A program made the translations under genes and the position numbers. 36,154 nucleotides of DNA from an uncultured Eisenbergiella sp. (GTDB lineage: Bacteria; Bacillota; Clostridia; Lachnospirales; Lachnospiraceae), in NCBI GenBank assembly GCA_947626995.1, contig CANQUI010000022.1:1-36154 (forward strand), written 5' to 3'. The first letter of the stretch is position 1, and each line of letters begins with the position of its first letter. Positions 15,452 to 35,093 of the stretch are shown here, piece after piece. Under the pieces are notes generated by a model. That model was not told where the DNA came from. It worked only from the letters and a program-made list of their open reading frames with translations, and ran no database searches.

Positions 15452-17107
15452 ATGAACCTACAGAAAAATCAGATCGTGGAAGTAACCATTACGGATATGG
15501 GCGCCGACGGAGAAGGGATCGGTCATCTGGACGCAGGCTATACGCTGTTTGTCAAGGACGCCCTGATCGGGGACGTGGTGCGGGCCAAAATCGTCCGGCC
15601 CAAAAAAGGATACGCGTTCGCCCGCCTGGAAGAAATTCTGTCCCCTTCCCCGGACCGGGTGGAGCCGGTCTGCCCTATGGCCCGCCGGTGCGGCGGCTGC
15701 CAGCTGCAGGCGCTTTCCTACGAAAAGCAGCTGGAATTTAAAAACCGCAAAGTAAAAAACAATCTGATCCGGATCGGCGGCCTTTCCCCCCGGCTGGTGG
15801 AGGCCGTAATGGAAGAGCCTGCCGGGATGGAGGTCCCTTTTTTTTACCGCAACAAGGCGCAGTTTCCGGTGGGAACGGACAAAAACGGACGACTGGTGGC
15901 GGGCTTTTACGCGGGTCGCACCCATACCATCGTCCCGGCGGAGGACTGTGTGCTGGGAACGGCGGAAAACAGGGAAATTCTGCGCATTGTGCTGGATTTT
16001 TGTGAGCAGAAGCGCATCCCGGCTTATGATGAGATCAGCGGACGGGGGCTCGTGCGGCACGTGCTGATCCGAAAGGGATTTTCTACCGGGCAGATCATGG
16101 TCTGCCTGATCCTAAACGGTTCGTCCCTGCCCGATGAAAAGGAACTGGCGGACCGGCTCTTTGCCGGGATTTCGGGCATGACCAGCTTTTCCGTCAGCGC
16201 AAACACCGCGCGGGGGAATGTCATTATGGGAAACTCCGTCCGCACCGTGCGCGGCGCGGACCGGATCGAGGATACCATCGGCGACCTTGTGTTTTCCATC
16301 TCTCCGCAGTCTTTTTATCAGGTAAATCCGGCCCAGACGGAGCGAATCTATGCCCAGGCGCTCTCCTATGCGGGTCTGACGGGGAAAGAGACCGTGTGGG
16401 ATCTCTACTGCGGGATCGGCACGATTTCGCTGTTTCTGGCGCGGAAGGCGAAGGCCGTCTACGGCGTGGAGATCGTGCCCCAGGCCATAGAGGATGCCAG
16501 GGCCAACGCCGCGCGAAACGGCATCCAAAACGCCCGGTTTTTTACCGGAAAGGCCGAGGAGGTGCTGCCGCGCAAATTCGAGGAGGAGGGAATCCATGCG
16601 GACGTGATCGTTGTGGATCCGCCCCGCAAGGGCTGCGAGAAGGCGTGTCTTGAGACCATAGTGCGAATGAATCCCACCCGGATCGTGTATGTGAGCTGTG
16701 ATTCCGCTACGCTGGCCAGGGATCTTGGGTGGCTGAATCAGAACGGGTATGAACTGGTGAAGGCGCGGGCGTTTGACAATTTTCCGCAGAGCGTGCATGT
16801 GGAGACGGTTGTTCTTTTGTCCCAACAAAAACCAGATGACACGATAGAGATCGACTTAGACCTGGACGAGCTGGATGCCACCAGTGCCGAGTTGAAAGCA
16901 ACCTATCAGGAAATCAAAGATTATGTGCTGAAAGAATTTGGCTTGAAGGTTTCAAGTTTATATATTTCTCAGGTAAAACGCAAATGTGGAATTGAAGTGG
17001 GAGAAAACTATAATCTTCCAAAATCAGAAAATGCAAGAGTTCCACAATGCCCGAAAGAGAAAGAAGATGCTATCAAGGCTGCCCTGAAATATTTTGCGAT
17101 GATTTAA
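15452..17107 (+). CDS. rlmD: 23S rRNA (uracil-C5)-methyltransferase with element-derived C-terminal tail (chimeric RlmD)
   Basis: The 551-residue product is a host RlmD/RumA-type methyltransferase up to about residue 450, then an element-encoded tail. Visible parts are an N-terminal TRAM domain, the iron-sulfur region CPMARRCGGC, the SAM loop DLYCGIGTISL, the DPPRKGC motif and the nucleophile Cys416 in YVSCDSATLARDL. After HVETV (450-453) the reading frame enters AT-richer element DNA encoding about 98 residues (ATYQEIKDYVLKEFGLKVSS ... ALKYFAMI). The displaced native end, CLMSRVEGK-stop, is at 34,683-34,712; without the insertion the protein would be 462 residues. The catalytic core is intact, so activity is probably retained. 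The ATG at 15452 is chosen for its RBS GGAGTGAG. Confidence 0.88.
   Translation: MNLQKNQIVEVTITDMGADGEGIGHLDAGYTLFVKDALIGDVVRAKIVRPKKGYAFARLEEILSPSPDRVEPVCPMARRCGGCQLQALSYEKQLEFKNRKVKNNLIRIGGLSPRLVEAVMEEPAGMEVPFFYRNKAQFPVGTDKNGRLVAGFYAGRTHTIVPAEDCVLGTAENREILRIVLDFCEQKRIPAYDEISGRGLVRHVLIRKGFSTGQIMVCLILNGSSLPDEKELADRLFAGISGMTSFSVSANTARGNVIMGNSVRTVRGADRIEDTIGDLVFSISPQSFYQVNPAQTERIYAQALSYAGLTGKETVWDLYCGIGTISLFLARKAKAVYGVEIVPQAIEDARANAARNGIQNARFFTGKAEEVLPRKFEEEGIHADVIVVDPPRKGCEKACLETIVRMNPTRIVYVSCDSATLARDLGWLNQNGYELVKARAFDNFPQSVHVETVVLLSQQKPDDTIEIDLDLDELDATSAELKATYQEIKDYVLKEFGLKVSSLYISQVKRKCGIEVGENYNLPKSENARVPQCPKEKEDAIKAALKYFAMI
16799..16829 (+). other. attL of the integrated element
   Basis: The core GAGACGGT (16802-16809) is shared with attR. 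The element-side arm TTGTCCCAACAAA (16817-16829) is the exact reverse complement of the arm at 34648-34660. The codons here read V-E-T-V in rlmD. Confidence 0.8.
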
Positions 17108-17138
17108 GGACATCGCTGATTTCAAGGAGGAATAACAC

Positions 17139-17510
17139 ATGAAAAGCACATTTGAAAAAATGGGTGGAACCTACACACTTGGCGCAGACGGAATTTACTA
17201 TCCGAATCTTGTCAGTACAGATGAAGAACCGCATTATGGGAAATATGGAATGATACGGAAAACGTATCTGAAAGAGCATCGTCCGGCAATGTATTCACTG
17301 TATATGTTGGAAGACAGACTGACAGAACATCTGAATACTGTGGATGATGAAGCACAGGAGAGAATGGATATTCTGATGCGTCAGATGATGGAGCGGAAGG
17401 GCATTACGGAAGAATTGAAAGCTCGTGATCAGATGGAATGGGTTAGAGCGGTAAATAATGCCCGGAATGCTGCAGAAGAGATTGTGTTGAAAGAATTAGT
17501 GTATATTTAA
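17139..17510 (+). CDS. TnpV family transposon-encoded protein
   Basis: A 123-residue protein with a strong AAGGAGG RBS. The sequence (FEKMGGTYTLGADGIYYPNL, KYGMIRKTYLKEHRP, the RMDILMRQMMERKGITEELK helix) matches my recollection of the TnpV family of Tn4451-like elements, described as excisionase-like accessory proteins; its exact role is unproven. It begins 31 bases after the rlmD tail and is followed by a terminator. In the integrated state it would therefore be read from the rlmD transcript, and in the circle from the recombinase transcript. Confidence 0.85.
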   Translation: MKSTFEKMGGTYTLGADGIYYPNLVSTDEEPHYGKYGMIRKTYLKEHRPAMYSLYMLEDRLTEHLNTVDDEAQERMDILMRQMMERKGITEELKARDQMEWVRAVNNARNAAEEIVLKELVYI

Positions 17511-17517
17511 AGCGTGG

Positions 17518-17538
17518 AAAGCTCCTTCGGGAGCTTTT
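17518..17538 (+). terminator. Rho-independent terminator after TnpV
   Basis: An AAAGCTCC/GGAGCTTT stem closes a TTCG tetraloop and is followed by only a short T run. It separates the rlmD-tail-TnpV transcript from the caspase gene. Confidence 0.75.
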
Positions 17539-17577
17539 CAGTGTTTGTAAGAGTTTATATAAAATGGGCTAAGAAGG

Positions 17578-17586
17578 TGGTATGAT
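17578..17586 (+). promoter_or_regulatory. Possible extended -10 promoter of the caspase gene
   Basis: TGG-TATGAT is an extended -10 element about 90 bases before the caspase start. No clear -35 box is present. The leader between them is very AT-rich. Confidence 0.35.
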
Positions 17587-17676
17587 CAAAATAACAGATT
17601 AAAATTTATATTAAGAAATGAATTTAAAATTTTTAATTATGAAATAAAACGTAAGATAATTTCAGAGGTGAGAATA

Positions 17677-19143
17677 ATGGATAGAATTGCATTAGTAATC
17701 GGTAATTCTGATTATTCAAATGTAGGGAAATTGAATAATCCTAAGAATGATGCTGACGATATTGCTAGTATTTTGAATAAATTAAATTTTGATGTTACAA
17801 AAATAATGGATGCAAATTTAATAGATATTCAAAAATCTGTTAATGATTTTTTACAGGCATTAGATGAATATGCTGTAGGGGTATTTTTTTATGCAGGGCA
17901 TGGTATGCAAATCGACGGTAAAAATTTTATCGTTCCTATTGATTTAAAGTTAAGTGATAAAAGCAAGACAATGGTCTCTTGTTATTGTTTAAATTCGCTG
18001 TTAGAAGGTGCATCTTCATATAAGGGAAAAACATTAATATGTATATTGGATGCATGTCGAGATAATCCTTTTGCTATGGGGAGGGGATTTTTAACAGGCT
18101 TTGCGCCATTTAATAATCCACCTAAAGGTACTATGATTGCTTATTCTACAAGCGCTGACTGTAGTGCATTTGATGGACAATGTAGTAATGGATTATATAC
18201 ACAAGTTTTAAAAGATGCTATGCTTATTCCAAATTTGAAAATTGAAGAAATGTTTAAATTTGTTAGAAATAAAGTGTCAGAAATATCAATTAGCCAATAC
18301 GGAGAAGAACAGCTTTCATGGGAATATTCTTCGTTAGTGGGAGACTTTTATTTTTCTGTTACGCCACAACCAGTCAATGAACAGGTTACTGATGAGAAAA
18401 TATATGAATTCATATGTGCTCGTCGAAAATCTTATGAGAATGCTTCGGATAATATTTATGATATTGAATGTTTGCCATATATAGATGCCTATAATAAATA
18501 TCATATACCAATTATTAAAATTTTACGTGCATATTCAAGAGTAGATTATTCAAAAAGAGGATTTCAGTTTTCGGATGCTACTATAGATCAGTTAAACAGC
18601 AATTATTTGTCATCATGGGGATTTATACAGAAATATGGTAGATGGTATTATAAAAATTATTACGTTGAGATGGGAGATTTATTGCCATTGCCCGAGGAAT
18701 TAGAACCTAAACAACCTATTAATGGAAAGGAATTGAAGATTGAAGCTTCATTGAGCTGGAAAATGAATGATGGAAAGATAAGATTTCAAGTATCTTCTAA
18801 TATTCCAGAGGAAACCCCATTAATGTTTACATTACGTGGCAAAGAATATACAGCTCAATGTAAATCTGTAGCAGGTAATAGAATTTCAATAAGTGAATGG
18901 TTTAGTGACAGAGGTAATCCTATGAAAAATGGATTTTATACTATAGATGTGTCATGTCCGATATATAGTGTATTGCCAGAAAAGATAAAGAAAATATTTG
19001 GTGAACGTAATAGAAATATATGTGGACAATATGTTAAATTTGAACCAGTGGGAGGAAATACGATTCATTTTTCGTATGGATTAGTTCTTAAAAATAGTAA
19101 AGTTCAAGTTATTGATATGCAACAAAGAATCTCAGCATTATAA
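17677..19143 (+). CDS. Caspase-like (peptidase C14/orthocaspase) protein with unassigned C-terminal region
   Basis: A 488-residue protein. The ATG at 17677 has AGAGGTG six bases upstream; an in-frame GTG at 17668 is less likely. Residues 1-228 form a caspase/p20-like domain: RIALVIGNSDY at the N-terminus, catalytic His75 in FFYAGHGMQ and catalytic Cys127 in CILDACRDNP, followed by MIAYSTSADCSAFDG. Residues 235-345 hold a helical, Tyr-rich linker. Residues 350-475 alternate hydrophobic residues as in a beta-sandwich (LKIEASLSWKM, IRFQVSS, PLMFTLRGKEYTAQCK, GFYTIDVSCP). No signal peptide or transmembrane helix is seen. The gene is a single cistron between two terminators and is AT-richer than the rest of the element, suggesting separate acquisition. 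Bacterial caspase-like proteases can act in regulated cell death or phage defence; that role is inference here. Confidence 0.85.
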   Translation: MDRIALVIGNSDYSNVGKLNNPKNDADDIASILNKLNFDVTKIMDANLIDIQKSVNDFLQALDEYAVGVFFYAGHGMQIDGKNFIVPIDLKLSDKSKTMVSCYCLNSLLEGASSYKGKTLICILDACRDNPFAMGRGFLTGFAPFNNPPKGTMIAYSTSADCSAFDGQCSNGLYTQVLKDAMLIPNLKIEEMFKFVRNKVSEISISQYGEEQLSWEYSSLVGDFYFSVTPQPVNEQVTDEKIYEFICARRKSYENASDNIYDIECLPYIDAYNKYHIPIIKILRAYSRVDYSKRGFQFSDATIDQLNSNYLSSWGFIQKYGRWYYKNYYVEMGDLLPLPEELEPKQPINGKELKIEASLSWKMNDGKIRFQVSSNIPEETPLMFTLRGKEYTAQCKSVAGNRISISEWFSDRGNPMKNGFYTIDVSCPIYSVLPEKIKKIFGERNRNICGQYVKFEPVGGNTIHFSYGLVLKNSKVQVIDMQQRISAL

Positions 19144-19199
19144 TGAATGTGGTTTTATACAAGAAAACATGGCAGATTGTAACTGGTTAAAGTGAATTG

Positions 19200-19232
19200 G
19201 GCGTATGGAACTTTTAAATCCATACGCCTTTT
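19200..19232 (+). terminator. Rho-independent terminator after the caspase gene
   Basis: GGCGTATGG and CCATACGCC form a perfect 9-bp stem with an 11-base loop, followed by TTTT. It lies between the caspase stop and the convergent relaxase gene. Confidence 0.85.
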
Positions 19233-19274
19233 AAACAAGAGAGTTGTAAGAGCATATTATCTACTCGATGATGA

Positions 19275-20984
19275 TTATAATTCCATATCATATGACCTTT
19301 TCTTAGCTCTGGCAGGCTGATTTCGCCGCATCCCCTGTTTCCTCTGATATTCAAGTTCCCAGGCACGATGGGAAAAAACATCAGGATCTTCCACATTGAG
19401 ATAATCTACCTCATTGGCGGCAATATCACGGCGGTGATAGTCATAATACTTACCAAAAGTACCTTTGAGCTGCTCGATCAGCTTATCCCGGAAATTAGGA
19501 CGTATCTGGATTCTGGTGTCCAGCAATTCTGTATACTGTTCAGGTTCAGGACGAAATTTTTCTTCCCGGAAAGCAGCGGCGTCTTTTTTAAGCTGCTTTT
19601 TAAGGGAGATGTCCTGAGAATCCAGGATATCAAGATTGCTATTCATCTGGTCATATTTTTTGGATAGATTCGTCATATCTTTATCAGTGGAGCATTGTGC
19701 CTGGAAGATTAGTTGCTCTTTCCTTGATTTCAGTTCTTCAATTTCTTCCGTAACAGTGGTAAGCTGCTGATTCAATTTTATATGCTGGATGGGATTCAAA
19801 ATACTGGTTTTCTCTTTTTCTACATTCAGCTCTTTCCGTTCTGTAACTTTAGCTTTGAGTTTCTTTTTAACGGTGTTGTATTTATTCAGTATTGGATTAA
19901 AATGATTCATCCAATCATGAATTACTTCTTTTTGCATCTCATTATGAAGTAAATGATATTGTGTAAAAATCATATGATTTCGGATAGTTTCCATTGTTTC
20001 TGCAATTACAGGAATAGAATTTTTGACAGCTTGAGCCAGTTTCTCTACCTGAGCTTTTAATTCCCGGAGCATTTGGTTATCTGCACGAATCTGGCGGTTG
20101 ATTTCACAGCGGTCAGCTATCATTCCTTTCTTTTCCATGTTTTGAGCAATATAGCCTTCGTGGATGGTCGGCTGTTCGGTGATTCCCTGATCTGCAAAGC
20201 TGCGGTGATCAATGGATGCATTTATCTGATTGTGGGCAAGCATTTCATTTACAGTATCTGCCCAGTTTGCTCTCCAGATACAGAGTTGCTCATCACTGTT
20301 CCATTGTTCAGAAATGGGATTCTGTCTGCCATAGCGGCTGCTTTTTGGCTGCTTGTCGATGCGGTCATAGCCTTTTTCCTGTGCGACAGATGCGGTCATA
20401 TAAACTTTCTTTTTCCCAACTTTATATCTGTATTGCTTTTCCCAGCCATCTTTTTGAGCAGCTTTGAATTCAGTAGCTGTAAATCCTTTTTCTTCTCCAT
20501 TTTTTATGCAGAGATATTCTTTTTCTGTTTTATACTGCCATGTTCCGTTTTCGTTCAGTGGACGGACGGTAAGCAGAATGTGTGCATGAGGATTGTGTCC
20601 ATCCGTATCGTGAATAGCAAAGTCAGCGCACATGCCCATATCTACAAAGTTCTTTTGAATAAAATCTTTTAGAAGAGAAATATTACTGTCCTTATCTAAT
20701 TCAACGGGAAGTGCGACAACAAATTCCCTTGCCAGTCGGCTGTCTTTTGTTTTTTCTGCAGCTTCCACAGCATTCCAGAGTTGTTCACGGTCTTTCCATT
20801 CTGGTGAAGCCATCGGTGGAAGCAATACTTCCTGATAAATGAGTCCATGCTTTCTGGTGTAATCATGCTGGATGCCATCGTAATCATTGTACATCCGGCT
20901 GCAGCTCATATAAGCAGAAGCTGCGACAGCGGAACGTCCGGAACCACGGCTGACAACTTTGGCTTGCATATGATAAATTGCCAT
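19275..20984 (-). CDS. mobA: MobA/MobL-family (MOBQ) relaxase
   Basis: A 569-residue relaxase that nicks oriT and pilots the transferred strand. Tyr25 in SAVAASAYMS occupies the position of the catalytic Tyr25 of RSF1010 MobA. The His motif HDTDGHNPHAHI (His125, 130, 133, 135) binds the metal. The C-terminal half (about 300-480) is charged and coiled-coil-like; the primase domain found in RSF1010 MobA is absent. The start chosen is the ATG at 20984, because an upstream in-frame GTG lies inside the AGGAGGTG ribosome binding site. The nic site is just upstream at 21095/21096. Confidence 0.93.
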   Translation of the reverse strand: MAIYHMQAKVVSRGSGRSAVAASAYMSCSRMYNDYDGIQHDYTRKHGLIYQEVLLPPMASPEWKDREQLWNAVEAAEKTKDSRLAREFVVALPVELDKDSNISLLKDFIQKNFVDMGMCADFAIHDTDGHNPHAHILLTVRPLNENGTWQYKTEKEYLCIKNGEEKGFTATEFKAAQKDGWEKQYRYKVGKKKVYMTASVAQEKGYDRIDKQPKSSRYGRQNPISEQWNSDEQLCIWRANWADTVNEMLAHNQINASIDHRSFADQGITEQPTIHEGYIAQNMEKKGMIADRCEINRQIRADNQMLRELKAQVEKLAQAVKNSIPVIAETMETIRNHMIFTQYHLLHNEMQKEVIHDWMNHFNPILNKYNTVKKKLKAKVTERKELNVEKEKTSILNPIQHIKLNQQLTTVTEEIEELKSRKEQLIFQAQCSTDKDMTNLSKKYDQMNSNLDILDSQDISLKKQLKKDAAAFREEKFRPEPEQYTELLDTRIQIRPNFRDKLIEQLKGTFGKYYDYHRRDIAANEVDYLNVEDPDVFSHRAWELEYQRKQGMRRNQPARAKKRSYDMEL

Positions 20985-21003
20985 ATCTGGCACCTCCTTT
21001 CGA

Positions 21004-21100
21004 TGTTGCCTGCAACAGCGGAAAAGCCCTCGGCAGAGCGCACGAGCCCCGTAGGGGATACCACCGCCCGATTTATCGGGTGGTGAGTAAGTGCGCCCTT
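21004..21100 (+). other. Origin of transfer with RSF1010-like nic site
   Basis: The sequence TAAGTGCGCCCT at 21088-21099 matches the RSF1010/MOBQ nic consensus, with the expected cut between G21095 and C21096 on the plus strand. It is preceded by a hairpin with 11-bp arms (21062-21072 and 21075-21085, one G-T pair) ending 10 bases before the nick. Two smaller hairpins lie upstream (TGTTGC/GCAACA at 21004-21017 and CCCC/GGGG at 21047-21057). The region lies directly upstream of the relaxase gene. With this polarity mobA would be transferred last. Confidence 0.85.
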
Positions 21101-21120
21101 CGGGAGTAGAACTTGTGCGT

Positions 21121-21342
21121 TTACATTCCTCGTAGCCGGATTATCAGCTCCCGTTTCAGGGAATCCAAATCCATTTCTTTAATATGGGGAACAATACTTT
21201 CCAAAATGGCTCCTTCCTGGACTAATCGGTGTGTTCTGGCATCACGTTCTTTTTTGCGATTTCTTGCTTCGGCTTCTTCTTGGCGGTGTCTTGCCTGTAA
21301 AAGTGCTTTTTCTTCCGGTGTCATGATTTTTTTATCTGCCAT
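21121..21342 (-). CDS. DUF3847 family small protein
   Basis: A 73-residue, highly charged helical protein (MADKKIMTPEEKALLQARHR, ARTHRLVQEGAILESIVPHI). I recognise this as the DUF3847 type commonly encoded next to mobilization genes of Clostridia elements. By position, just ahead of oriT and mobA and co-oriented, it may be a relaxosome accessory protein, though no function is established. The ATG at 21342 follows GGAGG in a leader that is a direct copy of the mobA leader. Confidence 0.75.
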   Translation of the reverse strand: MADKKIMTPEEKALLQARHRQEEAEARNRKKERDARTHRLVQEGAILESIVPHIKEMDLDSLKRELIIRLRGM

Positions 21343-21422
21343 ATCTGGCACCTCCTTTTTATGCCCGTATCCGGGCAGTATTGGTTTTAAAATCTTATGG
21401 TTTGGTACTATAGTTTCGGATA

Positions 21423-21480
21423 ACTGACAGTGGCATGTTTCTGGTGATAAATAAGGAAAGAAAGTAGTACCACTGTCAGT
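21423..21480. repeat. 11-bp inverted repeat in the dnaC-DUF3847 gap
   Basis: ACTGACAGTGG (21423-21433) and CCACTGTCAGT (21470-21480) are perfect inverted arms 36 bases apart in the 170-base gap between the DnaC-like gene and DUF3847. They could be a protein-binding site or an RNA hairpin dividing the replication and mobilization parts of the minus-strand operon. A 5-bp hairpin (GCCCG/CGGGC) lies nearby at 21363-21376. Confidence 0.5.
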
Positions 21481-21512
21481 GAAGAATAATTATCGTGTTA
21501 TGCTTCTTTGCT

Positions 21513-22370
21513 TCAGTTCTGGTTCGGAGCATGATTGTTTAACAGAATTCTTTTTGCCTGTTTTAAATTAGCTGTTGCATTGTCCTGACGAATATTCCGG
21601 TTATTGATACGGACAGGAATACATCTCTCCAGAATACGGTCATAAATTCGTTTGTGTGCGATATCAGCGGCGTTATTCAGCTCTGATAAAGTGAGATTGG
21701 TCGTTATGATCAGGGGCTTTTTACTGCGGTAACGACTGTCGATCACATTGAATACCTGTTCCAGTGCAAAGTCAGAGTTCCGCTCAATTCCGAGATCATC
21801 AATAATCAGAAGACTGTAGCGGTTTAAGCTGTTGATGAACTGGTTTCTGTCTTCAAAATGCATTCCGGTAAGGGTATTTAGAATTCGGGAAAAGTTGGTC
21901 ATCAGTACAGGAACGCCTTTTTCCAGCAGGGCATTGGCAATGCAGCCTGCAAAAAAAGATTTTCCAGTACCGACATCACCCCAGATGAGAAGTCCGGAGG
22001 CGTTTGCTTTCATCTCTTCCCAGTTGCTTACATAATTGTGTGCCAGTTTTATTTCCGGATTGATGCCGTTATCCCTGGCAAAAGTGTAGTCATAGAGTGC
22101 TTTGTCCTGTAAGCCGCTGGTTTTAAGATGCTCTATTTCCATTTGTTTTTCATGAAGTTTTCTCTGGGTTTCTTCCTGCTCAAAGATTTCCTGCTGGCAT
22201 TTACAGCGGATGGAAGGAATAAGAACCTTTCCCTGTAATTCATGCCGGCATTGTCTTGGCGTATTGCATTTGGAACAGTAGATCAGGTGGTCTGTTTCGT
22301 TAAAATATTCATCAGGCTGAAGCTCTCTGTTTGGTGTTATAGCGGTTGCTTTTTCTGTAAATCTTGTCAT
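21513..22370 (-). CDS. DnaC/IstB-like AAA+ ATPase (helicase loader)
   Basis: A 285-residue protein. A Cys-containing N-terminal segment (YCSKCNTPRQCRH ... CKCQQEIF) resembles the zinc-binding front of Firmicutes DnaC-like loaders. The AAA+ core has Walker A LLIWGDVGTGKSFF at about 127-140 and Walker B SLLIIDDLGIE, with sensor segment PLIITTNLTLSEL. Its start overlaps the repA stop by four bases. Together with RepA it probably loads the host replicative helicase at the element origin. Confidence 0.9.
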   Translation of the reverse strand: MTRFTEKATAITPNRELQPDEYFNETDHLIYCSKCNTPRQCRHELQGKVLIPSIRCKCQQEIFEQEETQRKLHEKQMEIEHLKTSGLQDKALYDYTFARDNGINPEIKLAHNYVSNWEEMKANASGLLIWGDVGTGKSFFAGCIANALLEKGVPVLMTNFSRILNTLTGMHFEDRNQFINSLNRYSLLIIDDLGIERNSDFALEQVFNVIDSRYRSKKPLIITTNLTLSELNNAADIAHKRIYDRILERCIPVRINNRNIRQDNATANLKQAKRILLNNHAPNQN

Positions 22371-23083
22371 AGTGTTTCGTATTCCTCACTTTCGTAATTT
22401 CTTTGCCGGGAAGCAGGATGATCCTGTCTTGCCCAACTGATGATGGTAGCTGCATGGTTCTGATATTGCTTTCCGGTAGAAGCCATATAACCGGATAAGC
22501 GTTCAATATAATCCTTCCAGTCAGGGATTGTCTGCCGGATATCTTCAAGCTCTTTTTCTGACAGAAAAACATTTTGAAATTTTCCATAGGGTGAGAGTGG
22601 CTCCTTACTCCCTCTTATTGCTAAATTGTTCTTTTTTATCTCTTTCTTATTACCAGACAGTTTTCTGTCTGTATCAGGGAAAGAATCCTGTCTGTCAATA
22701 GGACAGTTTTCTGTCTGTCTTAGGGAAAGAAATCTGTCTGTATAGTGGATGGTTTCTTTTGGGAGTTTTACATAAATTCGATTGGGCTGTCCGGGTCCCT
22801 GCCGTTTTCGGAAGATAAGCTCCTGTTTTTCCAGTACTGCCAGAGCAGTTTTAATCGTCATCTGGCTTTTGTGGAGAACTTCTGCCAGTGCTTCAATTGT
22901 AAAGTAAATGAACACATGACCATCGATATCTGACCAACCCTCATTTTTCTGGGAAAGCCTTGCCCGGTCGAGCAGGATAATATAAAGCATTTTGGCAGTT
23001 TCGTTTATTTCCATGTCCAGAAGGAAACGGGGAAACATCATATAAGATGGCAGGTTGGTGTCTGCTGTCAGAAAGTCCGTCAT
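22367..23083 (-). CDS. repA: RepA_N-type replication initiator
   Basis: A 238-residue protein. The first 110 residues (LPSYMMFPRFLLDMEINETA, MLYIILLDRARLS, YFTIEALAEVLHKSQMTIKT, LIFRKRQGPGQPNRIYV) form the winged-helix RepA N-terminal domain of theta-replicating Firmicutes plasmids and ICE-type elements. A variable middle contains a repeated Arg/Asp-rich stretch encoded by the iteron-like DNA at 22656-22741. The C-terminus matches the usual short conserved tail. RBS GGAGGTG precedes the ATG. It sits between parR and the DnaC-like gene. Confidence 0.88.
   Translation of the reverse strand: MTDFLTADTNLPSYMMFPRFLLDMEINETAKMLYIILLDRARLSQKNEGWSDIDGHVFIYFTIEALAEVLHKSQMTIKTALAVLEKQELIFRKRQGPGQPNRIYVKLPKETIHYTDRFLSLRQTENCPIDRQDSFPDTDRKLSGNKKEIKKNNLAIRGSKEPLSPYGKFQNVFLSEKELEDIRQTIPDWKDYIERLSGYMASTGKQYQNHAATIISWARQDHPASRQRNYESEEYETL
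22656..22741. repeat. Iteron-like direct repeats within repA, probable replication origin
   Basis: Two about 40-bp units (22656-22695 and 22702-22741) start with GACAGTTTTCTGTCTGT and end with CTGTCTGT, with a 46-base period. They differ at only five or so positions. Each contains CTGTCTGT boxes in both orientations. RepA_N plasmids are known to carry their origin as iterons inside the rep gene, so this is the likely oriV of the circular form. Confidence 0.65.
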
Positions 23084-23101
23084 GTGTTCACCTCCAATCA
23101 G

Positions 23102-23485
23102 TTATTCTCCAAGAAAATCCCAGTCTACATCATTATCCGGCTGTGAATTTTCAGGTGTTGGAAAGGACACCCTGATTTGGGGCTCCCTTTGCGCCATGCC
23201 TACAGTCAGTCCGGAAAGAAAAAGTGGCAATTCCTGTTTCAGACTGTTTTCCACTGCATCTACAATCTGTTTCACAAAAAGTTCTTCCCGTTCTCTTGTT
23301 TCCAGATAAGGATCAGCCTGTGTGCGGTAGTAGCGGTCAAAATAATCTACCAGTGCAAGAGAGATTACCTGACTGTAAGATTTAAAATCCTGCCTGTCCA
23401 TCGTCTGTAAATATTCCCAGGCTCTCCGCTGTTGTTCTTTGTCCAGATTAAAGCGCAGGTTTGTGTTGCGGATATTGTTCTGCAT
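23102..23485 (-). CDS. ParR-like segregation adaptor protein
   Basis: A 127-residue protein directly downstream of the ParM-like gene, with its RBS (GGAGGGG) embedded in the last parM codons. The N-terminus (NTNLRFNLDKEQQRRAWEYL) looks like a ribbon-helix-helix DNA-binding strand and helix. The acidic C-terminus (PDNDVDWDFLGE) fits the filament-binding tail of ParR proteins. It is assigned mainly from gene order and architecture; homology should be checked by profile search. Confidence 0.65.
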   Translation of the reverse strand: MQNNIRNTNLRFNLDKEQQRRAWEYLQTMDRQDFKSYSQVISLALVDYFDRYYRTQADPYLETREREELFVKQIVDAVENSLKQELPLFLSGLTVGMAQREPQIRVSFPTPENSQPDNDVDWDFLGE

Positions 23486-23488
23486 GGT

Positions 23489-24406
23489 TTATCCCCTCCT
23501 TTTCAGGCTCATATAAGCCAGAGATTCGTAACCTTTGGCAGTGGCGCAGATGTCATCAATGATGGTGACTCGTGATTTGTCATACGTTCCGAAGTTACGG
23601 ATCAGGCATCCACCGCCGCCAACCACATACAGGCGCATTAGGTCAGGATTATATTCATATTTGCGGAGCGTGGAAAAAAGTTCTGCCACATACTGTCTGG
23701 CAATAGAACTGATACAATCCAGATATGGTGCTGAAATGTCAGCTGTTCCAAACCGCAGAATCTGTTCTACTGTAGATTCTTCAATCTTCACTCCAAATTT
23801 GTCCAGAACAGCGTTCTTTGCAGCAATCATGCATTGGTTTACACCAAGTTTTTCTGTCCAGCATCGGCTTTCTTGTGCTTTCTTATTGTTGATATACAGA
23901 ATGTTCATGGTTCCGTTTCTGATATCTGCAAGGAGATTAGTTCCCTTGAAATTTCCAAGGTGGTTTACAATAGCCGGATATCCCTGTGGGTAAAGGCTAC
24001 ATCCCACAAAGCGGAGATGATATTCTTTGCCGTTGAAACGGTAATGGACTTCTGGATTCTGGAGCAGATAGGAACGAAAAGCTTCTCTTTGATTTCTGAT
24101 CCATGTCAGAGGAAGTCCGGCAGCCAGATGAACATCTGCTTCACGGATGGAAAAGACATTCAGTTCCCTTGCAATAGCCATTAGCGTCAGAAGATAATAT
24201 TCTTCGTCCATAGCTTTATCCGGGATAAATTCTTTGTGTCCTTCGCCGATCCGGTAGTAAATGCCGTTGTATTCCAGAATATTCCCGGTGAAGATTGGTT
24301 CAGTTTCATAGGCTTTGATGCCGGTTGGGGTGACGGTGTTTGCTTTTTTCATATTGCCGTAGCCATGATCTACAGCAATGATTTTGGTGTTTCTGAGTTC
24401 TCGCAT
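23489..24406 (-). CDS. parM: ParM/StbA-like plasmid segregation actin homologue
   Basis: A 305-residue actin-like ATPase. Phosphate-1 motif KIIAVDHGYGNMK is at the N-terminus. The second half contains LLADIRNGTMN (phosphate 2) and the adenosine motif LYVVGGGGCLIRN near residue 265. Such proteins form filaments that push plasmid copies apart. The ATG at 24406 is preferred over an upstream in-frame extension because GGAGG lies eight bases before it. It is first in the minus-strand parM-parR-repA-dnaC-DUF3847-mobA series, and its leader contains a large inverted repeat. Confidence 0.87.
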   Translation of the reverse strand: MRELRNTKIIAVDHGYGNMKKANTVTPTGIKAYETEPIFTGNILEYNGIYYRIGEGHKEFIPDKAMDEEYYLLTLMAIARELNVFSIREADVHLAAGLPLTWIRNQREAFRSYLLQNPEVHYRFNGKEYHLRFVGCSLYPQGYPAIVNHLGNFKGTNLLADIRNGTMNILYINNKKAQESRCWTEKLGVNQCMIAAKNAVLDKFGVKIEESTVEQILRFGTADISAPYLDCISSIARQYVAELFSTLRKYEYNPDLMRLYVVGGGGCLIRNFGTYDKSRVTIIDDICATAKGYESLAYMSLKRRG

Positions 24407-24414
24407 AAAAAATA

Positions 24415-24498
24415 CCTCCGTTTTCGTATTGATTGATTCAGCAGGTCGTACCGGTGTGGTACTGCTCTGCTGTGGGATAAGCATACGAAAATCGGAGG
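24415..24498 (-). promoter_or_regulatory. Large nested palindrome in the parM leader
   Basis: Outer arms CCTCCG+TTTTCGTAT (24415-24429) pair with ATACGAAAA+CGGAGG (24483-24498, one bulged T). Nested inside are CAGCAG/CTGCTG and GTACC/GGTAC. The outer arm contains the parM ribosome binding site, so a folded transcript would hide it. It may be a translational control element or part of a parC centromere. Confidence 0.6.
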
Positions 24499-24574
24499 AA
24501 AAAGGCATTGAGGGGAAATTGAGCAGGAATTGAGAAAAAAGATATATTGTGCTTACGTTCTTCATGTACTCTTG

Positions 24575-24604
24575 TTGTGATTTCATTGTTTTTTATCGTA
24601 TAAT
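24575..24604 (+). promoter_or_regulatory. Promoter of the two-component/ABC transporter operon
   Basis: TTGTGA (24575-24580) and a perfect TATAAT (24599-24604) are spaced by 18 bases, ending 22 bases before the response regulator start codon. Confidence 0.7.
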
Positions 24605-24626
24605 ATGGATACTGGAGGTGGTTTGG

Positions 24627-25301
24627 ATGAAATACAAGATTTTAGTTGTCGATGATGATAAAGAATTGGTGAAAATGCTTTGTAGTTATTTTAATATGAA
24701 ACAATATGAAACCATTACGGCTACAGATGGAATGGAAGCATTAAATAAAATAAAAATGAAACCGGATATTATTTTGTTGGATATCAATATGCCACGCATG
24801 GATGGGATTGAAGTATGTCGTCTGATACGCAGTAAAGTGTTATGTCCAATTTTATTTCTGACAGCAAGAGTTGACGAAGATGATAAAATTAATGGGTTGC
24901 TTTCAGGTGGGGATGATTATATTACGAAACCATTTAGTCTTCGGGAGTTGGAAGCAAGGATTGTCACAAACATAAAGAGAGAAGAAAGGCATCAACAAAA
25001 AACGGAATACCGTTTCATGGATGAAATGCTGATTGATTATTCTGAAAAAATAGTAGCTATAGCTGGACACAGGATGGAGTTCACAAAAATTGAATATCAG
25101 ATTATTGAATTCTTATCCATGCATCCAGGGCAGGTGTTTGATAAAGAACGTATATATGCACAAGTCTGTGGATATGATGCGGAAGGGGACAGTAGAACGA
25201 TAACGGAATTAGTACGGCGTATAAGGAAAAAAATAGCGGATTATTCAGAAAAAGAATACATAGAAACTGTATGGGGGATTGGATACCGATGGAAAAAATA
25301 A
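24627..25301 (+). CDS. OmpR-family response regulator of the element
   Basis: A 224-residue regulator: receiver domain with DDD at 9-11, phospho-acceptor Asp52 in IILLDINMPRMDG, and Lys101 in TKPF; winged helix at about 130-220 (FTKIEYQIIEFLS, RTITELVRRIRKK). The ATG at 24627 follows GGAGG by eight bases, so the upstream open frame is not coding. Its end overlaps the kinase start by 13 bases. It probably controls the ABC transporter genes downstream, as similar cargo modules do in antimicrobial-peptide response loci. Confidence 0.93.
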   Translation: MKYKILVVDDDKELVKMLCSYFNMKQYETITATDGMEALNKIKMKPDIILLDINMPRMDGIEVCRLIRSKVLCPILFLTARVDEDDKINGLLSGGDDYITKPFSLRELEARIVTNIKREERHQQKTEYRFMDEMLIDYSEKIVAIAGHRMEFTKIEYQIIEFLSMHPGQVFDKERIYAQVCGYDAEGDSRTITELVRRIRKKIADYSEKEYIETVWGIGYRWKK

Positions 25302-26467
25302 GAAACTTGTCACTGAAAAAAACAATTCTGCTTTATTTTGTGATCAGCTTAACGGCAGCATTTCTGTTATCTGGATTTACAGTTCATTTTGCAGGAAATA
25401 TGCAGAATAAAATATGGGAAAAATATATTGATTATGCAGATTATACGGACGTGTTTCAGCAATATGGAAAGAAATACGAGATTGAGATATCAAGACCTAA
25501 TCAATCGCAGATGAATCGTTTGGACTATCATCTTTCGGAAATGTGTGACTTTATGGAAACATATTCGGTACTGATTTTTTCGATTGTTGGGAGTGTTGTT
25601 GCGGTATTCTTTTTTTATAAAAATAAGTTAAAGACACCTCTACAGGAACTAAAAGATGCCTCACAAATGATTGCAGATAATGAACTGGATTTTCATGTGT
25701 CCTATGAAAATAAAGATGAGATGGGAACTTTGTGTAAAGAATTTGAAATGATGCGAAGTGATTTAGCAGATAACAACAGAAAGATGTGGCGAATGATTGA
25801 TGACGAGAAGGCTTTGCGGAATGCAATTGCACATGATATACGTTCTCCACTTTCCATATTGCGTGGGTATCAGGAAATGCTCTTAGAGTTTGTTTCTGCC
25901 GAGAGTATAAAAACAGAGGATGTTATTGATATCTTACAAACAGGCATGTATCAGATTGACCGTATAGAGCATTTCACGGAAAACATGAGAAAAATGTCCC
26001 ATTTAGAACAGAGGGAACTGCAATGCTCAGAGATAGAGTTATCGGAACTGGCAAAAAAGATTGAGGCAGAAGCTGCCATGCTGTCCAAGAAGGAAAGTAA
26101 ATTATGTAAGGTAGAAAGAGTGCAGGAACAAAACATTGTGAAAGTGGATGAGGAACTTGTCATGGAAGTGACAGACAACTTACTGGAAAATGCGGTTCGA
26201 TATGCACAAAAAAGTATTGCTTTGCAGATAAAGAAAAAGGATGGTTTTCTTATAATTTCTGTTGAAGATGATGGAATAGGATTTGTGGATACTGAGGAAA
26301 AAGTAACAGAGCCATTTTATCATAAGAATCCACAAGATGATTTAAAGCATTTTGGCCTTGGTATGTATATTTCTCGTATTTTCTGTGAAAAGCATGGAGG
26401 AAATTTGAAAATATATAATGCCAGACAAGGCGGTGCTCATGTAGAAGCTCTTTTCAAAGCTGAATAA
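25289..26467 (+). CDS. Sensor histidine kinase of the element
   Basis: A 392-residue kinase with helices at about 12-34 and 91-111 flanking a short extracytoplasmic loop of about 55 residues. A HAMP segment follows, then phospho-acceptor His182 in NAIAHDIRSPLSILRGY and an ATPase domain with N-box DNLLENAVRYA, G1 VEDDGIGF and G2 FGLGMYISRIF. It overlaps the regulator gene. The small sensor resembles kinases that detect stimuli at the membrane or through a partner transporter, which fits the adjacent ABC genes. Confidence 0.92.
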   Translation: MEKIRNLSLKKTILLYFVISLTAAFLLSGFTVHFAGNMQNKIWEKYIDYADYTDVFQQYGKKYEIEISRPNQSQMNRLDYHLSEMCDFMETYSVLIFSIVGSVVAVFFFYKNKLKTPLQELKDASQMIADNELDFHVSYENKDEMGTLCKEFEMMRSDLADNNRKMWRMIDDEKALRNAIAHDIRSPLSILRGYQEMLLEFVSAESIKTEDVIDILQTGMYQIDRIEHFTENMRKMSHLEQRELQCSEIELSELAKKIEAEAAMLSKKESKLCKVERVQEQNIVKVDEELVMEVTDNLLENAVRYAQKSIALQIKKKDGFLIISVEDDGIGFVDTEEKVTEPFYHKNPQDDLKHFGLGMYISRIFCEKHGGNLKIYNARQGGAHVEALFKAE

Positions 26468-26583
26468 AAATACTTTATAAGGCTGAAATCGCAAATAAAG
26501 TGGTTTTAGTCTTTTTTGTTGTGAATTTATTGAGAATTGATTTGTATGATGTTGTTAAAGAAATAAAGAAAGGAAGAGATACA

Positions 26584-27654
26584 ATGAAAACAATCATAAA
26601 AAGAAGTATACTTGATTATTTAAAGAACCCTGTTTTGTGGATTGGCTTGATTATTATAGTTGCCAGTATGTATCAATGTCTGTCATCGTATTTGCAAATT
26701 CATTATATCAAACAGAATGAACAGATCACACAAAATGACGTAGCATTGGAAGATGCTGATGTCATGGATGGGTACATTCCCACATCTGATGATAAAGAAA
26801 GAAGAAGGGAGTGGGAAGATACGATCAAAGAGACGTTAATGGACACCTCCAAAAATGGTTTTGGATTTAGCAGGCAGGAAGCAGATCATGTAATGAAAGA
26901 AATTCAGAATATGGATGTAAAGACTGCTTCTGAGTTTTTGGAATCCCAATATGGCTATTATAATGCAATATATGCTTATGAGGACCTTGAAATTCATAAG
27001 GGGACAGCAGAAGAAATCAATCATTATATCGAGCGGAAATTATCCGAACATTCTTTTTCCTGGTACTTTGCCAAAAAATTTACGGATTTTGCAGGATTGC
27101 ATATGGCCTTTTTTGCAACAGTCTTGCTATCATTTTTATTTATTCAGGATACACGAAAAAGTACCTATGAATTATTACATACAAAGCCTGTTACGGCAGT
27201 CCAATATATATGTGGGAAAGTAATAAGCGGATTCATTAGTATGCTGGGAGTATTAGTGATTTTGAATGTTATATTCTTTATGCTGTGTTTGAAAACGTCT
27301 TTAGAATCGGGCTTTCCAGTAACACCAATTGATTTTTGCGTGAATTCTCTGATCTATATTATTCCGAATCTTTTGATGATATGTTGTGTCTATACAATTA
27401 CAGCAGTAATATTTAAAAATCCGCTTCCGGCAGCACCAATCTTGTTTTTACACATTATATATTCAAATATGCTGACCATGAAGAATGATATTTATTATAT
27501 GAGACCGTTCTCTATTATGGTGCGATTCCCTGGCAGGTTTTTTGAAACACATGCAGCTAAAATGTCAAACATAAATCAGATTATTCTTGTAATTTCATCA
27601 GTTATATTAGTATGTATTTCTGTTACAATCTGGAAAAGGAGGAGGGTTCATTGA
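26584..27654 (+). CDS. ABC-2 type transporter permease subunit (large)
   Basis: A 356-residue membrane protein. One helix at about 15-35 is followed by a hydrophilic region of about 130 residues, then five or so helices from about 180 to 350 (LHMAFFATVLLSFLFIQ, FISMLGVLVILNVIFF, LIYIIPNLLMICCVY, IILVISSVILVCISV). This is the layout of ABC-2 family permeases with a large first extracellular loop. The ATG at 26584 has AGGAAGAG upstream. Its stop overlaps the TTG start of the next permease. Substrate unknown; peptide or antibiotic efflux is plausible. Confidence 0.8.
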   Translation: MKTIIKRSILDYLKNPVLWIGLIIIVASMYQCLSSYLQIHYIKQNEQITQNDVALEDADVMDGYIPTSDDKERRREWEDTIKETLMDTSKNGFGFSRQEADHVMKEIQNMDVKTASEFLESQYGYYNAIYAYEDLEIHKGTAEEINHYIERKLSEHSFSWYFAKKFTDFAGLHMAFFATVLLSFLFIQDTRKSTYELLHTKPVTAVQYICGKVISGFISMLGVLVILNVIFFMLCLKTSLESGFPVTPIDFCVNSLIYIIPNLLMICCVYTITAVIFKNPLPAAPILFLHIIYSNMLTMKNDIYYMRPFSIMVRFPGRFFETHAAKMSNINQIILVISSVILVCISVTIWKRRRVH

Positions 27655-28307
27655 AAACGGAACTCAAAAACTGCCTGTCGTTATATAAGATTTTTTATTC
27701 ATGTGCATTTATACTGATATTGTGTGTTATTCATCCGATTATATACTATGAAGAAATCGGTTCAGCAATTCAGTCTCCAATAGCATTTTTAACAATTATT
27801 TTTTGTAGTGACACATATTTGATGGAAGTAAAAAGTAAGCGTGCCGATGTATTTCATTTGTATGATCAAAAAAAGCAGTTAAAAGTAATATCGCAGAGAG
27901 TGGGCGTTCAAATATTATATTTATTAATACTTTCTTGTGTTGGATATGTTTTGTTTTACTGGCAAAAACCGGGCAGTGTAAACGAAGGCATTTCGGGTAT
28001 TCAGATATTTCTTTTATATTTCATTGCAATGTTTGGAACTATCTGGCTTTGGAGTATATGCTCTGTGATTTTGTGTACATTGCTTCGAAATATGTGGGCA
28101 GGTATTGGATGTTTATTTGGAATTGTCATTGGACTTATATCAAAAGCGGGAAGTTCATTTTTCGGAAATCTGGGATTGTTTTCTTTCAGCTTTTGTGAAC
28201 CTACTCAATTAATGTCCGAGAGTTGGATTTATGGAACGCTTGTGTCTTTTATAGCGGGGCTGTTTTTATTTGCAGTATTACCAATGACTTTAAAGAAAAG
28301 AGGATAG
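27651..28307 (+). CDS. ABC transporter permease subunit (small)
   Basis: A 218-residue membrane protein with about six helices (IFYSCAFILILCVIHPI, ILYLLILSCVGYVLFYW, IFLLYFIAMFGTIWLWS, WAGIGCLFGIVIGLISK, LVSFIAGLFLFAVLP). It most likely starts at TTG 27651, where AGGAGGAGGG lies six bases upstream and TTGA overlaps the preceding stop; the longer frame from ATG 27612 has no RBS. It is expected to pair with the larger permease and the downstream ATPase. Confidence 0.78.
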   Translation: MKTELKNCLSLYKIFYSCAFILILCVIHPIIYYEEIGSAIQSPIAFLTIIFCSDTYLMEVKSKRADVFHLYDQKKQLKVISQRVGVQILYLLILSCVGYVLFYWQKPGSVNEGISGIQIFLLYFIAMFGTIWLWSICSVILCTLLRNMWAGIGCLFGIVIGLISKAGSSFFGNLGLFSFSFCEPTQLMSESWIYGTLVSFIAGLFLFAVLPMTLKKRG

Positions 28308-28310
28308 ATT

Positions 28311-29183: not shown

Positions 29184-29189
29184 ATATAA

Positions 29190-29210
29190 CGGCGGGCAAG
29201 TTGCCCGCCG
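29190..29210. terminator. Hairpin between convergent ABC and STAND genes, probable bidirectional terminator
   Basis: CGGCGGGC and GCCCGCCG form a perfect 8-bp GC stem with loop AAGTT, placed exactly between two convergent stop codons. The flanks are AT-rich without a long T run, so termination may be partial. Confidence 0.6.
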
Positions 29211-29220
29211 TAAATTATGC

Positions 29221-31533: not shown

Positions 31534-31571
31534 TAGAAATTCCCCTTTCGTAGTTAAGATTAAGTATATCT

Positions 31572-31600
31572 ATCATAACACGAACATATATTCGATTCAA
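31572..31600 (-). promoter_or_regulatory. Promoter of the STAND NTPase gene
   Basis: On the minus strand, TTGAAT (31595-31600) and TATGAT (31572-31577, with an extended TGT just upstream) are 17 bases apart. They lie about 40 bases before the TTG start. Confidence 0.65.
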
Positions 31601-31618
31601 GAAAATGCGGATATTTTT

Positions 31619-31648
31619 AAATTGATTGTGTCAATTTACAATCAATTT
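31619..31648. promoter_or_regulatory. 11-bp inverted repeat upstream of the STAND gene, possible operator
   Basis: AAATTGATTGT (31619-31629) and ACAATCAATTT (31638-31648) are perfect inverted arms separated by 8 bases. They lie just upstream of the STAND promoter and between it and the divergent 44-codon ORF. Confidence 0.5.
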
Positions 31649-31852: not shown

Positions 31853-31899
31853 AATACAAAATGTAAATCAGACTGTCGCTTTTTTCATGCATTTTTAAA

Positions 31900-33023: not shown

Positions 33024-34712
33024 ATGAAGAATAAAAAGATTAAATGCGATATATATACCAGAGTATCCACAACCATGCAGGTAGATGGCTACAGTCTGGA
33101 TGCTCAGAAAGAAAAACTCAAGAGATATGCGGAATTTCAGAATATGGAAATCGTAAATGAGTATTCAGATGAAGGTAAGTCTGGAAAGAGCGTAGAGGGC
33201 AGACCGGAATTTCAGAGAATGTTGGATAATATTGAGAATGGAACAGATGAGGTACAGTTTGTACTGGTGTTCAAGCTTTCCAGATTCGGTCGTAATGCAG
33301 CAGATGTATTAAACTCTCTGCAGAGGATGCAGGATTTTGGAGTGAATCTGATCTGTGTAGAAGATGGAATTGACAGCTCAAAAGATAGTGGAAAGCTGAT
33401 GATTTCTGTTCTGTCTGCGGTGGCAGAGATCGAACGAGAGAATATCCTTGTTCAGACAATGGAAGGACGTAAGCAGAAAGCCAGGGAAGGAAAATGGAAT
33501 GGTGGATTTGCTCCGTATGGTTATGAATTAGTAAATGGAGAATTGCAGATTGCAGAGGACGAAGCAGAGATTATTCGTCTGATCTATGACAAATTTATTC
33601 ATACCAATATGGGAATCTCTGCGATTGCCGCATGGCTGAACCAGCATGGATATAAAAAGAAAAAACGACAGAATAATACACTGGACGCATTTGCCGCATC
33701 ATTTATAAAAGGCGTTCTGGATAATCCGGTATACTGTGGAAAGCTGGCTTATGGACGAAGGAAAAACGAGAAAGTTTCTGGTACAAGAAATGAATACCGC
33801 ATTGTAAAGCAGGAAAATTATATGCTGCACGATGGTATCCATGAAGGGATTGTTTCAGAAACAGACTGGGAGCTGGCACATCAAAAACGGGAAAAAACAG
33901 GTGTGAAATATGAAAAGACACATAGTCTCGATCATGAGCATATTTTATCTGGAATATTGAGATGCCCGTTATGTGGAAGTGGTATGTATGGAAACGTGAA
34001 CCGAAAGAAAAAGAAAGACGGAACTTTATATAAGGATTATTTCTATTATGCCTGCAAACATCGTCGCCTGGTAGATGGTCATAAATGTGGATATCGTAAA
34101 CAATGGAGTGAGGAGAAGATTAACAATGCAGTGGAAGAAGTTATTCGGAAGCTGGTGAAGAATCCTAAATTTGAAGAAGCAATTCTGAATAAAATCGGTT
34201 CAAGAATTGATACAGAAGAAATAGAAAAAGAGATTGAAGGATTGGAAAAGCAGCACAGGCAGCTGACCGGAGCAAAAGCAAGACTTGGACAGCAGATGGA
34301 CAATCTGGATATCATGGATAAATTTTATGAGAAGAAATATCAGGATATGGAGACAAGGTTATACCGTTTGTATGATGAGATTGAAGGCGTGGAGAACAGT
34401 ATAGAGGAAGTCAAGAACCGCCTGCTGAATATTCAGCAACAGAAAATATCAGAAGAAAACGTCTATCAATTTCTTTTATATTTTGATAAACTATATGATA
34501 AGTTCACCGACCTGGAGAAGAAAGAATTTCTTAACAGCTTTGTGGAACAGGTGGACATTTACGAGCAGGAGCAGCCAGATGGCAGATTCCTGAAGCACAT
34601 AAAGTTCCGTTTTCCGGTGTATTTTGGAGACAGGGAGACACAGGAACTTTGTTGGGACAACGAAAGTACCGTTGAGACGGTATGTTTGATGTCACGGGTC
34701 GAAGGGAAATAG
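33024..34712 (+). CDS. Large serine recombinase (integrase of the element)
   Basis: A 562-residue recombinase. The N-terminal resolvase domain has nucleophile Ser15 in YTRVSTTMQ and the arginine motif KLSRFGRNAADV. The recombinase domain follows at about 160-280 (GKWNGGFAPYGYEL). A zinc ribbon (RCPLCGSGMYG with CKHRRLVDGHKCGY) and a long coiled coil at about 395-480 complete the usual large-serine-integrase layout. GAGGAAG precedes the ATG. The last 12 codons, ETVCLMSRVEGK, span attR and come from the host rlmD 3' end. In the excised circle the frame would instead run on into the 101-residue tail now attached to RlmD. Confidence 0.95.
   Translation: MKNKKIKCDIYTRVSTTMQVDGYSLDAQKEKLKRYAEFQNMEIVNEYSDEGKSGKSVEGRPEFQRMLDNIENGTDEVQFVLVFKLSRFGRNAADVLNSLQRMQDFGVNLICVEDGIDSSKDSGKLMISVLSAVAEIERENILVQTMEGRKQKAREGKWNGGFAPYGYELVNGELQIAEDEAEIIRLIYDKFIHTNMGISAIAAWLNQHGYKKKKRQNNTLDAFAASFIKGVLDNPVYCGKLAYGRRKNEKVSGTRNEYRIVKQENYMLHDGIHEGIVSETDWELAHQKREKTGVKYEKTHSLDHEHILSGILRCPLCGSGMYGNVNRKKKKDGTLYKDYFYYACKHRRLVDGHKCGYRKQWSEEKINNAVEEVIRKLVKNPKFEEAILNKIGSRIDTEEIEKEIEGLEKQHRQLTGAKARLGQQMDNLDIMDKFYEKKYQDMETRLYRLYDEIEGVENSIEEVKNRLLNIQQQKISEENVYQFLLYFDKLYDKFTDLEKKEFLNSFVEQVDIYEQEQPDGRFLKHIKFRFPVYFGDRETQELCWDNESTVETVCLMSRVEGK
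34648..34690 (+). other. attR of the integrated element
   Basis: The element-side arm TTTGTTGGGACAA (34648-34660) precedes the core GAGACGGT (34674-34681) and host sequence TGTTTGATG. The codons V-E-T-V-C-L-M-S-R align with V-E-T-V-V-L-L-S-Q at attL in the same frame. Confidence 0.8.
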
Positions 34713-35093
34713 GTGCGAAAGCTTAAGTATACTGCGGTTTTCGGACAATCGGGCAAATTTGGCATCGGGCAGAAGTACAACAAGTCCAAATGGAACAGCA
34801 TCGTGAATAAGACACCGATTTCCGCAAGTAGCAATCGAAAAATTGGTGGCGGTGCTCCGTCTGTTTATCTTGGCAAGCTCGAAAAGAAAGGCTCCGTAAT
34901 GCCATCCGATTTGGATGGCTATGTCGAGACGCATTGGATAGACCATGACCTACTGAGAAATAATGAATTCCAGGATTTCATCATTGACTGTGCCAGGAAA
35001 CTTCTGTGTGCTATTGAGCAAGCCACAGGCAGAACGATATCCGGCGAGGACTCGGATGAGGTGAAGCAGGCATTCGGTGATTCGCTTATGTGA
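34713..35093 (+). pseudogene. C-terminal fragment resembling DUF262/GmrSD-type proteins
   Basis: A 126-codon frame beginning at GTG directly after the recombinase/native rlmD stop. The sequence IVNKTPISASSNRKIGGGAP followed by SVYLGKLEK, DLDGYVETHWID and LLRNNEFQDFIIDCARKLL resembles the C-terminal part of DUF262-type proteins of several hundred residues. The N-terminal DUF262 domain is missing, so this is probably a relic truncated at the rlmD junction. AAGGG in the last rlmD codons could still serve as an RBS, so expression as a short protein is not excluded. Confidence 0.5.

Follow-up and report, generated by a model that had tools for sequence, protein, structure and literature searches.

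Why should the gene of an RlmD-type protein end in a tail of 101 residues, and why should the first bases of that tail recur, in the same reading frame, near the end of a large serine recombinase gene far downstream? This question is raised by a stretch of 36,154 nucleotides from an uncultured Eisenbergiella sp., referred to here as the window. Our answer, to which we assign a probability of roughly 0.75, is that the two genes have traded their 3′ ends. The attachment site of a mobile element would lie within the element's own recombinase gene, between the body of the enzyme and a C-terminal domain of approximately 100 residues. An rlmD-type gene has E-T-V codons near its 3′ end, and recombination with these in GAGAC(GGT) would exchange the two 3′ ends in frame. 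RlmD would gain the tail of the recombinase, the first residues of which would rebuild the usual RlmD end, and the recombinase would gain the sequence lying downstream, which in this case probably belongs to a second element, already resident at the site, and forms its short end. Excision would rejoin the tail and the recombinase, and the pair would therefore evolve as one unit even though its members are 18 kb apart in the integrated state. The features of the locus are listed in Table 1.

Table 1. Features of the rlmD locus and of the candidate mobile element, in window coordinates
Feature	Position	Strand	Evidence or remarks
RlmD, whole ORF	15452-17107	+	ATG 15452, TAA 17105-17107; 551 aa
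RlmD body, 450 aa ahead of the core	15452..16801	+	NCBIfam TIGR00479 rumA, 7.5e-130
Left core GAGACGGT (attL), read E-T-V in rlmD	16802..16809	+	
Tail of 101 aa plus stop	16802..17107	+	Alignments, Mantel test, dN/dS
TnpV gene, 31 nt past the tail stop	17139..17510	+	Pfam PF14198, 4.3e-38
MobQ relaxase of the element	19275..20993	-	NCBIfam NF041496, 2.5e-71; Pfam PF03389, 1.2e-88
RepA_N replication initiator of the element	22367..23083	-	Pfam PF06970, 1.3e-13
Large serine recombinase; 562 aa in integrated form, predicted 651 aa in circular form	33024..34712	+	ATG 33024, TAG 34710-34712; Pfam PF00239, PF07508, PF13408; phrog_95 integrase, 9.6e-121
Right core GAGACGGT (attR), within the recombinase gene	34674..34681	+	
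Nine final recombinase codons past E-T-V (CLMSRVEGK), stop and about 60 nt	34682..34773	+	Recurrence behind other cores

The insertion site is near the 3′ end of rlmD, with the junction at the C-terminal ETV of the protein assigned to RlmD by TIGR00479. The recombinase has Resolvase, Recombinase and zinc-ribbon domains (Pfam), and the cores also enclose IstB-like replication genes and genes for an actin-like protein, a two-component system and an ABC transporter. With a serine recombinase and a MobQ relaxase of its own, the 17.9-kb element (16802-34681) fits an integrative mobilizable element (IME). A Pfam scan of 16 of the larger element ORFs, several of them without any match, returned no conjugation machinery. 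A caspase-domain protein (17677-19143) and a STAND-like ATPase/TPR protein (29221-31533) are carried by the element as cargo, possibly related to defence.

The bases common to both genes number exactly eight, GAGACGGT; they are codon-aligned in both, and the distance from core to core is 17,872 bp. The repeat alone does not rise above chance: a 14-nt pattern round the left core, allowing up to three mismatches, gave three matches against 1.85 expected, and the right core is not among the three. The junction does rise above chance, because the same in-frame junction recurs in many relatives. In 95 RlmD junctions, each of the GAGAC bases is found in 87 to 95 cases, and the following position is less constant (79 of 95). 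In the tabulated elements, the in-frame state of the left tails is partly by construction, since these tails were detected as RlmD-joined ORFs; on the recombinase side, which is free of this construction, the core is in frame with the recombinase ORF in 20 of the 21 elements. The remaining one is the G131 array, where a stop precedes the core and separates the recombinase from the tail. At another locus (L228:15309-15983), a stop-interrupted tail lies inside an ORF that ends in ..YYYCFGCGVHGETV and looks, by eye, like a zinc-finger primase, that is, an off-target core.

In the window, the tail frame (16802-17104) is free of internal stops. The initial annotation had proposed that integration shortens the recombinase from 651 to 562 residues and lengthens RlmD from 462 to 551, and its arithmetic is right: the predicted circular recombinase comprises 550 + 101 = 651 aa, and the RlmD left by excision would comprise 450 + 12 = 462 aa.

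An exchange of 3′ ends between rlmD and recombinase genes is well supported by comparison with related loci. Among ten recombinase ORFs with bodies that are 94-100% identical, the window's included, nine different suffixes follow E-T-V. The short ones are CLMSRVEGK (window), VLLSKKH, VLMSRVEK, VGLQRKNT, VLMSKVNPNK and CLLSRKASV, two others measure 34 aa counted from E, and one is a full 102-aa tail (L260). Across a census of 76 distinct recombinase ORFs, 38 end within 20 residues of the core, 15 have a medium or partial suffix, 12 a full tail joined via the core and three a core-less tail, while six are cut by a contig or locus end and two have no core; the census pattern misplaced a few cores, such as those of L240, L204 and L285, which are really short suffixes. 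About nine further recombinases, judged by eye, end partway through a suffix resembling the tail, so that a tail on a recombinase at the site is not retained in every case. A third class of suffix, of approximately 34-40 residues (KPD..V.L..DM.DY.RIK-like), occurs on recombinases and RlmD proteins alike (L235, L262, L098, L120, L213).

The tail itself follows the recombinase. We hand-picked, rather than drew at random, 21 elements with the tail and the recombinase on one genome stretch in the expected order, and compared the 19 in which the tail is carried by an RlmD body (all except L038 and G150). In Mantel tests, tail distances correlated with recombinase distances (rho 0.88, p 2e-4), as against 0.14 (p 0.06) for tail and RlmD and 0.15 (p 0.05) for recombinase and RlmD. 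With a single element per 90% cluster (12 elements), the respective values were 0.885, 0.08 and 0.16. The left tails of the window and of G183, G130 and G164 are 95-99% identical, whereas the RlmD bodies to which they are attached share 36-67%. The proposed exchange of C-termini is thus borne out by the suffixes and by the correlations, and we infer from the sequence that this particular copy in the window has undergone it. The pairing of tail with recombinase speaks for ownership, not for function, as mere linkage in the circle gives the same result.

The initial annotation had proposed searching the tail against RlmD proteins and serine recombinases, and the tail indeed turned up on both. 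A tail model matched 186 ORFs in 190 sequences, or 156 once duplicates were removed, of which 99 continue from RlmD-type bodies, 11 are on recombinases and 46 are orphans or fragments. The preponderance of RlmD-type bodies is what one would find if the tail were a host-side extension of RlmD and its likeness to the recombinase at the core a coincidence. Such an origin is highly improbable, however, given that the tail tracks the recombinase and not RlmD in the Mantel tests, and that its bearers comprise diverse RlmD-type bodies, recombinases and orphan sites.

The tail has two parts. Its first seven residues, ETVVLLS, resemble the usual end of RlmD. Beyond them lies a conserved domain, most marked in residues 32-101, whose lineages match those of the recombinase. 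Over residues 8-101 the median dN/dS was 0.135, and over residues 32-101 it was 0.10, from 145 pairs with dS between 0.05 and 1.2, kept from 2,850 possible among 76 sequences; as the pairs share sequences, they are not independent. The other two forward frames contain on average 7.1 and 7.7 stops. These values indicate that the tail domain is under purifying selection. In a sample of 200 host-family genomes, one tail model found matches in 88 (E up to 1e-6, fragments included), and a broader model, with a different limit (E up to 1e-8), found them in nine of 299 genomes across the phylum; these nine include the genome of the window and another from its family. The closest tails on named contigs are mostly from Lachnospiraceae, and the tail is also present in an unassigned ORF of the Streptococcus suis phage record YS387. 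Searches of Pfam returned stray matches only, each to one of 76 members; the best PDB match (E 0.031) was not convincing, and further fold and family searches gave weak matches below the cut-offs, for example ribosomal protein L23 (0.05) and VapD (0.015). A match was obtained with phrog_27283 (1e-5), the function of which is unknown, and in the open-access literature we found no paper on the tail as a domain.

The exchange might also be a by-product of the position of the attachment site, the tail simply giving the target gene an acceptable end and both forms of the recombinase behaving alike. Most element ends, long and short, do start with the RlmD-like ETV[VCA]-L-[LM]-S, the majority of the distinct tail ORFs continue from an RlmD-type body, and the variety of recombinase suffixes, with the broken tail-like ones among them, makes it seem that the exact C-terminus is tolerated in the integrated state. 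Yet nine residues seem to be enough to end RlmD, while in the long tails strong purifying selection acts on residues 32-101, and recombinases with core-less tails bear the domain without any link to RlmD. We consider this account possible, though less likely than not. The suggestion of the initial annotation that the tail preserves the target gene is partly supported, for the beginning of the tail, the residues that resemble the usual RlmD end; a 9-aa suffix, however, seems to suffice elsewhere, and the conserved remainder would be left unexplained. Preservation of the target is plausible as a second, compatible role of the first seven residues only.

If the tail is normally rejoined to the recombinase by excision, its presence on a recombinase could be taken as a strict mark of the circular state, in line with the state-specific module of the initial annotation. 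In other genomes, 12 natural recombinases run in frame via the core into a full tail. In ten of them, the tail is dissimilar to the one borne by the most closely related recombinase (identity 0.36-0.62), and the other two, L050 and L072, have no near cousin for comparison. The tail is thus not a strict mark of the circle, and because of the mismatched tails we rejected the reading of the fusions as sequenced circles. The fusions in our data seem mostly to be array junctions instead. The clearest case is L260: its recombinase is 99% identical to the window's, but the tail fused to it is the same as in element G130b, and farther down the same contig, at L271, stands a recombinase identical to that of G130b. 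An integrated recombinase also bears a tail where another element adjoins downstream, so the C-terminus reports whatever adjoins it, be it the element's own circle (predicted), the host gene or a neighbouring element. In the window's genome (G000:C73, L004), we also observed a recombinase fragment with a decayed tail, which could be a leftover or could lie at the far end of an array.

A stop at the circular junction would have spoken against the rejoined form. Frame arithmetic gives none for the window, and the 12 fusions show that recombinases can be read through the core into a full tail; the stop in G131 and the recombinases broken inside a tail-like suffix are cases to the contrary. The circular form with its own tail was also sought directly. 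The predicted junction pattern had no exact match in viral contigs. A second junction pattern (up to two mismatches) matched in eight of 299 family genomes, none of the matches being the window recombinase's own junction: three are RlmD junctions, two are orphan tails and three come from other recombinase types, whose tails are broken or cut.

On the right-hand side of the element, the initial annotation had taken the sequence past the core for the native end of the host rlmD. The stretch 34671-34773, however, recurs in other genomes at 79-90% identity (50-103 nt aligned). Five of these copies follow different RlmD bodies (L228, L230, L231, L243, L247), one follows what remains of a recombinase (L229, with 82% identity to L086 recombinase residues 351-559) and three are orphans (L242, L244, L245). 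This recurrence speaks against a native rlmD end. By eye, several of the matches share more sequence farther on. Because the stretch recurs in such different surroundings, the sequence from 34682 to the contig end at 36154 probably belongs to a second element, of another class, which presents its left end here and bears a tail of nine residues. As neither the far end nor the recombinase of this short-tail class was found, we infer the second element rather than observe it. It also follows that 462 aa, the length of the RlmD left by excision, need not be the native length, since the flank looks like the end of another element. A Schlafen/AlbA_2 gene begins at 35441, within 34682-36154, and the contig ends inside the probable second element.

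Another possibility would be that the tail exerts its effect chiefly after integration: produced together with RlmD from the host rlmD promoter, it would serve in trans as a partner of the recombinase, either RDF-like or as an immunity factor, in company with the downstream TnpV. The TnpV gene follows the rlmD-borne tail at close quarters when the element is integrated, and would follow the recombinase-borne tail in the predicted circle. Of 124 tails examined, 23 have a TnpV-like ORF behind them, some orphan tails that lie elsewhere than in rlmD keep an open frame, and engineered integrase-RDF fusions are described as working in cis in the accessible part of PMC5737554. On the other side, TnpV-like ORFs are missing behind 101 of the 124 tails, the core-less tails borne in cis by recombinases suggest a role in cis, and binding of the tail to the recombinase is purely hypothetical. 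We consider this possibility unlikely. In many relatives (L039, L042, L045, L152, L139), the place that TnpV occupies in the window, immediately after the tail, is taken by a conserved small ORF of approximately 85-90 codons.

Returning to the exchange of 3′ ends, the best hint that the tail domain works with the recombinase comes from four loci (L050, L072, L211, L248), at which a recombinase with a core-less tail lies directly upstream of a second recombinase. A tail that lacks the E-T-V core cannot be swapped via the core. The second recombinase, swappable at the first three loci, has a full tail via the core at L050 and L072 and ends in ETVVLLSRKQE at L211, where the first, visible only as a 242-aa frame, keeps its tail; at L248, the frame of the second stops before the core. 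Such loci are rare: a query with a core-less-tail recombinase gave one match in 295 genomes of the order under a strict limit.

Tentatively, at somewhat less than even odds, we suggest that the tail changes the activity of the recombinase, most likely by aiding integration from the circle. The direction of the effect is proposed by analogy with the Mx8 integrase and with engineered integrase-RDF fusions, as far as the latter are described in the available text of PMC5737554. More speculatively, large serine recombinases may possess, in the tail, a natural control domain that can be detached, present on the enzyme in the circle (or lent by a neighbour) and lost to RlmD on integration. The state of the DNA would then be written into the C-terminus of the enzyme, and tandem rlmD arrays would exchange C-terminal modules between elements.

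The choice between integration and excision by large serine integrases is central both to phage biology and to DNA-writing tools. Our analysis points to a common family, its tail being present in 44% of the sampled host-family genomes with fragments counted, in which integration itself would alter the C-terminus of the enzyme. The natural variants, with a short suffix, a neighbour's tail or a permanent core-less tail, make a direct test possible. The long RlmD tails of Clostridia would also be explained, with the warning that such tails are mobile-element sequence.

The swap of C-termini as such has already been reported. Streptococcal ICEs and IMEs with a single serine integrase insert in rumA (PMC4701971, 2016; PMC5357655, 2017, both as far as their accessible text goes), and for the ICEs a reciprocal exchange of the 3′ ends of the rumA and serine integrase genes, altering both C-termini, is described (same portion of PMC4701971). 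A functional difference between the two integrase forms was likewise proposed there (PMC4701971, PMC5357655, accessible portions). In these descriptions, the streptococcal elements resemble ours in the rumA/rlmD target and in the short repeats, of which one is located in rumA and the other, at the opposite end of the element, in the integrase gene. They differ in that the accessible part of PMC4701971 describes both reading frames as changed, whereas in the window both genes keep their frame and what is swapped is a conserved domain. The recombinase of phi-SsuFJZZ32_rum, a rum assignment taken from the record name, is 49% identical to the window's over 98% and ends in ECVALLVKN. What our analysis adds, and what we did not find in the open-access literature, is the identity of the domain and the finding that it pairs with the recombinase, together with the core-less form and the shuffling in arrays.

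More distant parallels exist for an attachment site within a protein gene. In phage Mx8, attP lies inside the integrase gene, and integration replaces a C-terminus of 112 residues by one of 13, rendering the integrase less active (Magrini 1999, as cited in the accessible part of PMC4701971); in contrast to the window, the enzyme is a tyrosine integrase and the target is different. Integration-dependent immunity of mycobacteriophages, as presented in the available text of PMC9262239, likewise places attP in a protein gene, the C-terminus of which is altered on integration, but the protein is a repressor, the integrases are tyrosine integrases, and degradation tags rather than a conserved domain are involved. 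The archaeal suicidal integrases, such as that of SSV1, share the attachment site in the integrase gene; that gene is split and inactivated according to the portion available of PMC8371274, whereas the body of the window recombinase stays whole. The serine integrase-RDF fusions described in the accessible part of PMC5737554 are engineered, and the fused part is a known RDF, while for the window tail the searches gave no convincing relative. They nevertheless share with the arrangement proposed here that a large serine integrase bears a fused part which determines the direction in which recombination runs.
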